Assembly (NCBI GenBank): GCA_946544235.1
Contig: CAMNMC010000091.1
Coordinates: 1-32,714, forward strand
DNA from: an uncultured Lachnospiraceae bacterium
Lineage (GTDB): Bacteria > Bacillota > Clostridia > Lachnospirales > Lachnospiraceae
Length of the DNA: 32,714 nt
Reading direction: 5' to 3'
Part shown: one piece after another, positions 29,614 through 32,618 of the stretch
How the letters are laid out: each line of letters begins with the position of its first letter
How positions within the stretch are numbered: the first letter of the stretch is position 1
Notes under the pieces: generated by a model
Databases searched by the model: none
The model's input: the letters and a program-made list of their open reading frames with translations, nothing else
What the model was told of the DNA's origin: nothing
Made by a program: the position numbers and the translations under genes

Positions 29614-29815
29614 GACAGGCGGCAAATCTTGTATTTTCGCCATTTTTTCGAAAAAGGCGCTGAAAGATATTGCATACGATAAATTGTTAAAAAAGTATGA
29701 CAAACCTTTGCAAGAGGAGCTCCATCATAAAAATACAATGCCGGGCGGAACCTTATTACCGTCAGGCTAACGTGGGATCGAAAGATCCCGACCACTTAAC
29801 TATATTATATTTTCA
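29614..29815 (+). promoter_or_regulatory. Structured 5' leader of the PFL mRNA
   Basis: Three hairpins are visible: CGCC with GGCG around a T/A stem (29638-29659); GCC...CGG with CCG...GGC (29740-29767); and GGGATC-GAAA-GATCCC (29774-29789), a perfect stem with a GNRA loop, about 27 bases before the AAGGAGG. It does not match the ZTP (pfl-motif) or THF riboswitch cores as I know them. Confidence 0.5.
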
Positions 29816-29831
29816 AGGAGGATTTTGAAAC

Positions 29832-31886
29832 ATGGAAGCAACAGGTTGGAATGGCTTCGTAGGCGGCAAGTGGCAGAAGGAAGTTAATGTTCGTGACTTC
29901 ATCCAGAAGAACTATACTCCATATGAAGGAGATGATTCTTTCCTCGCAGACCCTACACAGAATACTAAGGATCTTTGGCAGCAGGTTCTTGATCTTTCAA
30001 AGCTTGAGAGAGAAAAGGGCGGAGTTGTTGATATGGATACAAAGGTTGTATCAACACTTACTTCTCATCAGGCAGGATATCTTGATAAGAGCAAGGAGAC
30101 AATCGTTGGTCTTCAGACAGATAAGCCATTCAAGAGAGGAATGAACGTTTACGGTGGTATCCGTATGGCTGAGAAGGCTTGTGCTGATAACGGCTATACA
30201 GTAGATCCTGAGATCGTTGAGTTCTTCACAATTCACAGAAAGACACACAATGCAGGTGTATTTGATGTATATGATCCTGAAATCAGAAGATGCCGTTCAA
30301 ATCACATCATCACAGGTCTTCCTGATGCATACGGACGTGGACGTATCATCGGCGACTACAGAAGAGTTGCTCTTTACGGTATCGATTTCCTTGTAGCTGA
30401 CAAGGAGGATCAGAAGCTTTCATTTGGTACAGAGTACACAGATGATGTTATCAGAGGTAAGGAAGAAATCTCTGAGCAGATTAAGGCTCTTAAGGAGCTT
30501 AAGACGATGGCTTCTTTCTATGGCTTCGATATTTCTAAGCCTGCAACAAACGTTCAGGAAGCTATTCAGTGGACATATTTTGGTTACCTCGGAGCAGTAA
30601 AGGAGCAGAACGGTGCTGCAATGTCACTTGGCCGTACAGCTACATTCCTTGACTGCTATGCAGAGAGAGACCTTGCAAACGGTACATTCACAGAGTCACA
30701 GATTCAGGAGTTCGTAGATCACTTCATCATGAAGCTTCGTCTCGTTAAGTTCGCAAGAACACCTGAGTACAATCAGATCTTCGCCGGTGACCCGGTTTGG
30801 GTAACAGAGTCACTTGGTGGTATGGGTGTTGACGGACGTACACTTGTTTCAAAGATGTCATTCCGTTACCTCCACACACTTGACAACCTTGGTACAGCAC
30901 CGGAACCAAACCTTACAGTTCTCTGGTCAACAAGACTTCCTATCAACTGGAAGCAGTACTGTGCTAAGATGTCTATCAAGTCATCTTCTATCCAGTATGA
31001 GAATGATGATATGATGAGAGTTATTCATGGTGATGATTATGGTATCGCTTGCTGCGTATCTTCAATGAGAATAGGTAAGGAAATGCAGTTCTTCGGAGCA
31101 CGTGCTAACCTTGCTAAGTGTCTCCTTTACGCTATCAACGGTGGTGTTGATGAGTGTACAGGTGTTCAGGTTGGCCCTGAGTACAGACCTATCACATCTG
31201 ATGATGCTCTTGACTTCGATGAGGTTATGCACAAATATGATCAGATGATGGATTGGCTTGCTAAGGTTTATGTAAATGCCCTTAACATCATCCACTACAT
31301 GCATGATAAGTATGCTTATGAGAGAATCCAGATGGCTCTTCATGACAGAGACGTAAGAAGATACTTCGCAACAGGTATCGCAGGACTCTCATGCGTAGCT
31401 GACTCACTTTCAGCTATCAAGTATGCTAAGGTTTACCCAATCAGAAATGAGCAGGGTATCGTAGTAAGCTACAGAACAGAGGGTGATTTCCCTAAGTATG
31501 GTAACAATGATGACAGAGTTGACGAGATCGCAGCTAACCTTGTTTCAACATTCATGAAGAAGATCCGTTCACATCATGTTTACAGAAATTCATTCCCTAC
31601 AATGTCAGTTCTTACTATTACTTCAAACGTTACATATGGTAAGAATACAGGTGATACACCTTGCGGAAGAAAGCATGGTCAGCCACTTGCTCCTGGTGCA
31701 AACCCAATGCACAGAAGAGATACACACGGCGCTTACGCTTCACTTTCTTCAGTAGCTAAGCTTCCATTCGAGTTTGCTCAGGATGGTATCTCAAATACAT
31801 TCTCAATCATTCCTAGCGCTCTTGGTAAGGAAGATCAGGTATTTGCAGGCGACCTTGATGTAGATCTCGGACTTGACAAGCAGTAA
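29832..31886 (+). CDS. Pyruvate formate-lyase core, lacking the glycyl radical domain
   Basis: A 684-residue PFL (formate C-acetyltransferase) core. PFL splits pyruvate with CoA into acetyl-CoA and formate. The N-terminus ([20 protein letters not shown]) is normal. The catalytic pair is C407-C408 in GIACCVSSM, followed by [11 protein letters not shown]. The protein ends [22 protein letters not shown], immediately before the point where a normal PFL (740-760 residues) continues into a domain with the RVSGYA radical loop. The stop is followed by about 190 bases of non-homologous DNA, so a single frameshift cannot explain it. Alone it could not carry the radical; the missing domain is encoded at 32379-32618. 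AAGGAGG lies 9 bases before the ATG, and codons are highly adapted, suggesting very strong expression. Confidence 0.95.
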
Positions 31887-31897
31887 TTAACAGAATG

Positions 31898-31940
31898 CAG
31901 CAGTTTTCCGGCTGACGCTCGCGGCAGCCGGGAGCTGAAA
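31898..31940 (+). repeat. Intercistronic hairpin after the PFL core gene
   Basis: CCGGCTG (31908-31914) pairs with CAGCCGG (31925-31931), and TTTT/AAAA plus flanking CAG/CTG may extend it. No T run follows, so it is more likely an mRNA 3'-end stabiliser or partial attenuator than a full terminator. Confidence 0.55.
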
Positions 31941-32071
31941 AGATGTATTTACCATATGTCCTGAGGATCTATGACGGTTTATGAAAACCGGTTATTTACA
32001 CAAAAAGATTCAGCGGGAATGTCCGGTTTATATCAGGCATTCGGCTGCAGTATAGAAACGAGGAGACAAAT

Positions 32072-32293
32072 ATGGCAGATAAGTTAAATGATGTAAATGA
32101 TATAGTTTCAATGCTCGACAACATGGTGGCGAACGGAACAGGTCATATCAATGTGACCATCGACCCTGAGGCAGAGGCCGGAAAAACGGTTGAGACGATG
32201 GGCTGCATAGATTGTGCGAAGGGCGACCTTGCATGCTCTGTTCCGACACTTATGGAAGGCATGGATGATGCATTTGCAGAGGACAATAAATAA
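32072..32293 (+). CDS. 73-residue paralogue of the glycyl radical domain N-terminus, with Cys motif
   Basis: A small acidic protein with its own GAGGAG ribosome binding site. Residues about 8-31 (VNDIVSMLDNMVANGTGHIN) align with residues about 7-29 of the downstream glycyl radical protein ([20 protein letters not shown]); matching positions include V, MLD, V, G, H, NV. After that they differ: here there is GCIDCAKGDLAC (C45, C48, C55) and then VPTLMEGMDDAF, with no RVSGYA loop. It therefore cannot hold the radical. It may bind the PFL core at the same place and act as a placeholder, metal- or redox-linked regulator; these are inferences. I do not know a named family. Confidence 0.8.
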   Translation: MADKLNDVNDIVSMLDNMVANGTGHINVTIDPEAEAGKTVETMGCIDCAKGDLACSVPTLMEGMDDAFAEDNK

Positions 32294-32318
32294 AGCGGAC
32301 AGTGAGTGATCGCTCGTG

Positions 32319-32335
32319 ATCCTGCCTGGCAGGAT
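32319..32335 (+). repeat. Short hairpin between the two small PFL-locus genes
   Basis: ATCCTGC-CTG-GCAGGAT forms a perfect 7-bp stem, 29 bases before the ribosome binding site of the glycyl radical gene. No T run follows. Confidence 0.5.
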
Positions 32336-32378
32336 GCGGATTATGCTCCGTAAAAATATGATTGGAGGTAATATAACA

Positions 32379-32618
32379 ATGGCTAGTACAGCACAGATCG
32401 ATAACTTAGTTGATATGTTAGATGGTTATGTAACAAAGGGTGGACATCACCTCAATGTTAATGTATATAACAGAGAGACTCTTCTTGATGCTCAGAAGCA
32501 TCCGGAGAATTACCCACAGCTTACAATCCGTGTTTCAGGATACGCTGTTAACTTCATCAAGCTTACAAAAGAGCAGCAGGATGATGTTATCTCTCGTACA
32601 TTCCATGAGTCACTGTAA
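32379..32618 (+). CDS. Stand-alone glycyl radical domain of pyruvate formate-lyase
   Basis: Start chosen at ATG 32379, 10 bases after GGAGG (32364-32368). The 79-residue product is a complete PFL C-terminal domain: [21 protein letters not shown] at residues 7-27, [19 protein letters not shown], then [14 protein letters not shown] with the radical Gly at 54, and the terminal ISRTFHESL. It continues almost exactly where the upstream PFL core stops. E. coli GrcA (YfiD) is a known free glycyl radical protein that repairs cleaved PFL; here the same type of domain would be required for activity, not just for repair. It should be activated by a radical-SAM PFL-activating enzyme, whose gene is not in the window. 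Confidence 0.93.

Follow-up and report, generated by a model that had tools for sequence, protein, structure and literature searches.

A split pyruvate formate-lyase of Lachnospirales with a separate glycyl radical subunit and a putative accessory cysteine element

Organization of the split locus

In fermenting bacteria, pyruvate formate-lyase (PFL) is one of the main routes by which pyruvate is turned into formate and acetyl-CoA, and it is a textbook example of an oxygen-sensitive radical enzyme. Here we describe a stretch of 32,714 nucleotides from an uncultured Lachnospiraceae bacterium (contig CAMNMC010000091.1 of assembly GCA_946544235.1; hereafter the window), in which PFL is divided between a core gene that lacks the glycyl radical domain and a stand-alone radical subunit of the GrcA3 family, with a small third gene, hereafter the middle gene, located between them. 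The window is a whole contig that ends 96 bases past the GrcA3 gene, and the genome to which it belongs (G000) is a metagenome-assembled genome (MAG) of 119 contigs that is 82% complete. The features of the three genes are as follows.

29815..29821, + strand: ribosome-binding site AAGGAGG of the PFL core gene, read from the sequence
29832..31886, + strand: split PFL core, 684 residues, start ATG, without the glycyl radical domain (open reading frame; TIGR01255)
31050..31055, + strand: codons of C407-C408, the active-site pair (E. coli C418-C419), invariant in the 40 rows of alignment A3
32060..32065, + strand: ribosome-binding site GAGGAG of the middle gene, read from the sequence
32072..32293, + strand: middle gene, 73 residues, GrcA3-like N-terminus without the radical loop, and a cysteine tail
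32072..32170, + strand: segment of the middle protein (residues 1-33) that aligns with the opening helix and strand of GrcA3 (hhalign)
32204..32251, + strand: cysteine tail of the middle protein, C45-I-D-C48-A-K-G-D-L-A-C55-S-V-P-T-L60
32364..32368, + strand: ribosome-binding site GGAGG of the GrcA3 gene, read from the sequence
32379..32618, + strand: glycyl radical subunit GrcA3, 79 residues, start ATG at 32379 (NF038360)
32538..32540, + strand: codon of Gly54, the expected radical site within the RVSGYA loop; unchanged across all 24 rows of alignment A4

The core matches the PFL model TIGR01255 with 1086.3 bits (cut-off 994.2) from position 2 to position 666 of 744, where the match stops, and covers only positions 2-51 of the 106 of Pfam Gly_radical; no complete glycyl radical domain was found in the same chain. 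Its C-terminus lies about 20 residues past an ALGK motif, and it aligns to residues 8-682 of E. coli PFL (PDB 1h16). The remainder is supplied by GrcA3, which matches TIGR01255 positions 665-744 and Gly_radical positions 51-106, such that the two genes jointly cover the whole domain. In the mechanical list of open reading frames the GrcA3 frame begins upstream, at a GTG, and comprises 100 residues.

With 166.4 bits against the NCBIfam model NF038360 (cut-off 158), the window protein is a member of GrcA3. Against the E. coli-type GrcA model TIGR04365 it reaches 98.3 bits (cut-off 170) over model positions 65-126 only, and is not assigned to that family. GrcA3 resembles GrcA (YfiD; PDB 6owr) as a small stand-alone radical domain with an RVSGYA loop, whereas E. 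coli GrcA has a disordered N-terminal half of 60 residues and GrcA3 has 18 residues ahead of the shared part. Compared with E. coli PflB (TIGR01255; 1h16), the core is alike in its sequence as far as residue 682 of the E. coli enzyme and in the Cys-Cys pair, and GrcA3 is alike in sequence to the PflB radical domain, but PflB is a single chain whereas here there are two genes and a cysteine element. A preliminary description of the window had recognized a 684-residue core with C407-C408 and the radical domain cut off, which the reading frame and the profile matches bear out, as well as a separate 79-residue gene with its own ribosome-binding site and G54 in an intact RVSGYA loop, all of which can be read in the sequence.

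The split is natural and conserved

Between the core and the GrcA3 gene lie 492 nucleotides and the 73-residue middle gene. The two outer genes are in one frame by chance, and eight stop codons of that frame stand between them. A frameshift or an assembly error is ruled out by these stops together with the same layout in many genomes, as the preliminary description had maintained when it placed about 490 bases and a gene in the break. Three samples were used, namely 61 genomes, 392 genomes of the order and 391 genomes of the class. Among the 61, the halves are adjacent and in the same order in the genome of the window, in six further genomes of its genus and in two of other families of the order. 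A stand-alone GrcA3 is present in at least 80 of the 392 genomes of the order, a lower bound that counts matches in a short frame, and in 16 genomes outside the order among the 391 of the class (E 1e-40 or better). Of 493 candidate stretches in genome_contigs, 477 encode a relative of the middle protein; the best 80 of these served as named loci, a choice that favours near relatives. The order core, middle gene, GrcA3 is found at 78 of these 80 loci, the contigs of the other two ending ahead of GrcA3, and a fused PFL at none of the 80. The nearest named host among the best 80 of 477 is Eubacterium ruminantium FB3002, with a middle protein that is 97% identical.

In all 14 split genomes searched (that of the window 82% complete, the others 96-100%), exactly one PFL exceeds the cut-off, and this is the split core. 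The search reports some cores and GrcA3 as a single long frame, with stops lying between them in the window and at three checked loci. Two of the 14 genomes also have low-scoring other glycyl radical enzymes, and no further Gly_radical match was found at E 0.001 or better in the 82%-complete MAG of the window. GrcA3 might be only a spare part, as E. coli GrcA is, and the core a truncated or decaying PFL. NCBIfam indeed places GrcA3 among the autonomous glycyl radical cofactors. However, E. coli GrcA rescues damaged PFL, whereas none of the 14 genomes yielded a second PFL to rescue; the core has nonsynonymous substitution rates (dN) of 0.005-0.009 against synonymous rates (dS) of 0.13-0.27 (two pairs), and the split turns up in different families as well as beyond the order, so that we regard the spare-part explanation as very improbable. 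Rather, because the split is natural and conserved and no second PFL is seen, core and GrcA3 very probably form the working enzyme, which, judging from the gene content, would be activated by PflA encoded elsewhere. The PflA gene of the genome of the window lies away from the operon (G000:C69), PflA was found in seven of seven tested genomes of the genus, this one included, and an activase motif lies inside the fetched stretch at 62 of the 80 named loci.

The preliminary description had held the split to be natural, which conservation across genomes and purifying selection corroborate. It had also proposed looking for a full-length PFL in the same genome, of which none over the cut-off exists in the 14, and for short PFLs beside RVSGYA proteins in relatives, where the layout proved to recur. 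It passed over the gene in between, which is a third conserved part, and it overstated the novelty of the split, since GrcA3 is already a named NCBIfam family and two PDB chains annotated as formate acetyltransferase, 38la_A and 38lb_A (687 and 739 residues), match the core only. Neither chain is among the 34 sequences matched by GrcA3, and both therefore appear to lack the radical domain; they may be natural split cores or constructs, and the 38lb tail was read to residue 704. A DNA pattern for this tail has no match in the 392 genomes, and neither entry is among the top 50 Foldseek matches (structure library to 8 April 2026). With a named family and two chains that apparently lack the domain, the split alone is hardly new, and it is probably known to some specialists, even though no description of a split PFL was found among the open-licence PMC papers listed.

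Several further observations concern the distribution of these genes. Seven split-operon genomes carry a second GrcA3 copy (L190-L196), with no PFL core within the 4.3-7 kb around it; such copies fit a replaceable radical subunit, like spare stock. Other genomes placed in the genus of the window have, in place of the split PFL, an ordinary fused one that belongs to a distant clade (L041, L042 and L045). At L046 (G053:C94), two overlapping Gly_radical pieces, one with an internal stop, are found with no PFL core seen there, and are probably a broken other glycyl radical enzyme. Three MAGs titled Bacteroidales, Bacteroides or Muribaculaceae carry the middle gene (L100, L108 and L145); since L100 and L108 have cores that group with those of Lachnospiraceae, their titles are probably mistaken, whereas L145 is too short a stretch to be included in the tree.

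The middle protein joins a GrcA3-like start to a cysteine tail

No Pfam model matches the middle protein up to E 1, and its sole NCBIfam match is a sub-threshold one of 13.3 bits to GrcA3 (NF038360). Alignment of profiles with hhalign relates it to GrcA3 with 96.6% probability and E 6e-10 over 33 columns (residues 1-33). The aligned part corresponds to the helix and strand ahead of the radical loop, and the tail stands in place of the loop and the last helix. Indeed, the RVSGYA loop is missing from all 21 of the diverse middle proteins in alignment A1, which have the cysteine tail instead. Residues G24, H25, N27, C48, A54, C55, V57, P58 and T59 are invariant in these 21 proteins, a conservation that is in part by construction, since members of A1 were partly picked by their cysteine motif. 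The motif C-x(3-8)-A-C-x-[VI]-P-T-[LI] is nevertheless fitted by 30 of 30 loci fetched by similarity alone, and is looser outside the order (ACGVPTE in L213, ACGIPNE in L216).

Five same-genus pairs give the middle protein a dN of 0.012-0.053 against a dS of 0.5-2.4, indicative of purifying selection. This bears directly on whether the middle gene could be a functionless, decaying duplicate of GrcA3, as its shared N-terminus might suggest and as might the copy at L084 (G350), where a stop soon after the first cysteine pair shortens the middle gene and the core and GrcA3 frames are open. Given the strength of the selection, the conservation of the tail across families, the linkage to the split and the alternation with tails on the core described below, we find a decaying duplicate barely credible. 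The middle gene was not seen on viruses, as none of 167 pattern-matching stretches in viral_contigs encodes a relative.

Accessory subunits that resemble high-potential iron-sulfur proteins (HiPIP-like) bind a [4Fe-4S] cluster through four cysteines. The 102 unique middle proteins contain three cysteines in 83 cases, two in 16 and four in three, the window protein having three, and thus differ from the four-cysteine pattern of the HiPIP-like subunits BSS-beta and HPAD-gamma. These counts weigh on another possibility, that the middle protein is a BSS-beta-like gate that binds alongside GrcA3 and closes or positions it on the core, with cysteines that hold iron or zinc, perhaps across the protomers of the PFL dimer. 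BSS-beta, HPAD-gamma and MASS-delta are small metal- or cluster-binding proteins of glycyl radical enzymes, as the middle protein would be a small accessory; they serve other enzymes and bind clusters or iron, whereas the middle-protein profile has no solved relative at E below 0.1. BSS-beta and MASS-delta are believed to influence where the radical domain sits, the role ascribed to small cysteine-bearing accessory subunits in benzylsuccinate synthase (BSS) and alkylsuccinate synthases (PMC12590467, PMC12358834). In addition, the middle gene is strictly tied to the split within the order sample, as a gate might be. With two or three cysteines in 99 of the 102 proteins, no solved relative and a GrcA3-like start that it leaves unexplained, the gate appears rather unlikely.

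One additional feature lies between the core and the middle gene.

31887..32071, + strand: spacer from the core to the middle gene, 185 nucleotides, with strong hairpins (fold z-score -3.46)

This spacer folds better than 199 of 200 shuffles, and its hairpins could determine how much core is made relative to the small subunits. Its length varies from 13 to 230 nucleotides in 67 named loci, so that it is not a conserved part. No known RNA element in the window scores over its gathering score.

The cysteine element is encoded in trans or in cis

Within the order, the middle gene is present in 60 of the 392 genomes, all 60 of which also have a stand-alone GrcA3. A further 20 genomes have GrcA3 without the middle gene, and in 17 of the 18 looked at the core itself carries a tail with two or more cysteines after ALGK (hereafter cis tail), as exemplified by ECGNQACNIPN (L173), ECGVDSACAIPNL (L174) and DCACCEPN (L170); the core of G224 (L184) has none. 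Outside the order, the 16 split loci divide into three with a middle gene (L213, L216 and L202, in which it lies behind GrcA3), nine with a cis tail, such as DCSNGACSTPTLFEGLD (L204), and four with neither (L206, L214, L215 and L217). Thus, 26 of 31 split loci without a middle gene have a cis tail (17 of 18 in the order, 9 of 13 outside).

Cores that have a pattern-found middle gene carry no cysteine after ALGK at any of 125 loci (from L033 on, a range in which some genomes are counted twice). Among 35 cores without a pattern-found middle gene, two or more cysteines are present in 26. The other nine comprise L084 and L085, which do have a middle gene, L188, L189 and L197, which have one elsewhere in the genome, and L184, L206, L214 and L215, which are without; at 11 further loci, including L217, no core was found by pattern. 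A profile of the middle tail, with 700 shuffles as background, recovers nine of the 26 cis tails with an E-value under 0.01, the best shuffle reaching 0.83. No true middle gene was found by whole-genome search of 20 genomes (ten with a cis tail, five with neither element and five with a fused PFL), two of which, G576 and G719, are 82% and 88% complete; the search returned only GrcA3 or PFL starts, together with the cis tail itself in G719, and no match in G162.

On a tree of the cores, the trans and cis states alternate repeatedly. The middle-gene label changes nine times, at least five of these changes being forced by well-supported branches, and the cis label eight times, at least two being forced; both labels are far more clustered than when shuffled. 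The tree is a quick maximum-likelihood estimate with SH-aLRT support only, for 76 cores thinned from 118 unique ones, for which the named middle-gene loci were reduced to roughly a quarter and cores below 600 residues were excluded. It was rooted at the midpoint for drawing, and the directions of change are hence a reading only.

Three fused PFLs are placed among the split cores. One of these, in G410 (L198), keeps the cysteine stretch CGCEEVTC where core and radical domain meet, a trace that renewed fusion of a cis-tail core to GrcA3 might leave. In the genus g61 (L188, L189, L197, L088, L082 and L083), the operon consists of core, activase and GrcA3, and an intact middle gene is found elsewhere, near genes that we take to be proB and proA from their resemblance.

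A proposed three-part enzyme

Based on these sequence relationships, we suggest, as a reasonably likely though by no means certain reading, that the locus encodes a three-part split PFL composed of the core, an exchangeable radical subunit and a cysteine element at the site where the radical domain docks. The core, with C407-C408, would provide the barrel and the thiyl chemistry, and GrcA3, with G54, would be exchangeable and dock at the place taken by the C-terminal domain of an ordinary PFL. The cysteine element would be the 73-residue middle protein here and a tail on the core itself in many relatives. Less certainly, the middle protein may sit, via its GrcA3-like start, in the vacant site of the radical domain, with its cysteines placed there in lieu of the radical loop. 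There it would hold and guard the active site around C407-C408 whenever GrcA3 has left to be activated or, once damaged by oxygen, to be replaced; under reducing conditions GrcA3 would displace it. The presence of a part that would complete the barrel but has no radical loop suggests a stand-in for the radical subunit, and the tail cysteines suggest a redox or metal role. An arrangement with GrcA3 on one protomer and the middle protein on the other was considered and dropped, as in vivo data speak against half-site reactivity in E. coli PFL (PMC12338860).

Work on the E. coli enzyme indicates what a shortened core may require. There, GrcA stands in for the strand and loop that damaged PFL has lost (PMC8683613). 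An enzyme truncated at residue 695 reaches full activity as soon as the radical is on GrcA, but its binding of GrcA is undetectable and its activation 32 times lower, effects of the removal of residues 696-733. The natural core ends near that point and so has the form that performs poorly in E. coli; the split therefore seems to need something more. This might be nothing beyond a recognition or assembly aid, the cysteine element helping GrcA3 to bind the shortened core or PflA to find its substrate, with no redox role. The E. coli data and the position of the natural core end favour such an aid; however, the tail is kept around its cysteines at all of the similarity-fetched loci, which is more than docking alone seems to need, and we judge a pure docking function unlikely. 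Nevertheless, the docking aid and the BSS-beta-like gate are close rivals of the guarding stand-in.

The guarding stand-in also has to accommodate several observations that weigh against it. First, the cysteine element follows the split at most of the loci seen, but not at all of them: it is absent at five of the 31 split loci without a middle gene (L184 and the four loci outside the order), and whole-genome search of these five genomes did not find the middle gene, such that the element is not strictly required. Second, the cis tails lack a start like that of GrcA3, so that docking in place of GrcA3 becomes less plausible, and 17 of the 26, including those of the CACCEPN kind, are missed by the profile at E 0.01 and are like the middle tail in place and cysteines only. 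Third, the middle gene of genus g61 lies outside the operon. Fourth, the split core of G612 (L217) sits on a long branch among fused PFLs, and a single origin of the split is thus not shown. Finally, AlphaFold2 models of read-through single chains have a mean predicted local distance difference test score (pLDDT) of 55.7 and 50.5, too poor to place the middle protein; with the first model as query, the top 50 Foldseek matches consist of PFL and further glycyl radical enzymes.

A bolder form of the three-part scheme, which we put forward tentatively, is that, throughout a large group of Clostridia, two rival guests of one domain origin compete for the PFL site, one being GrcA3, which would bring the radical, and the other a radical-less sister that would lock or guard the site with redox-active cysteines; lineages without the sister would carry similar cysteines on the core. 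If this were true, the cell would toggle its main pyruvate-splitting enzyme, or shelter it from oxygen, by exchange of a small subunit.

Implications for PFL in fermenting bacteria

Accessory subunits are named for fumarate-adding enzymes and aromatic acid decarboxylases, and not for PFL, in the accessible text of PMC11194802, and likewise for HPAD, BSS and MASS, and not for PFL, in that of PMC12358834. No description of the cysteine element, either as the middle protein or in its alternation with core tails, was found among the open-licence PMC papers listed. The middle protein and the cis tails would be an accessory part for PFL, and the alternation between cis and trans makes their role testable with small proteins and simple mutants. 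For genome annotation, the locus is a warning against dismissing every PFL of about 680 residues as a broken gene. Whereas the swap of the radical domain in E. coli is an emergency repair, here it would be the standing design of the enzyme, one shared by no less than a fifth of the genomes sampled from the order.

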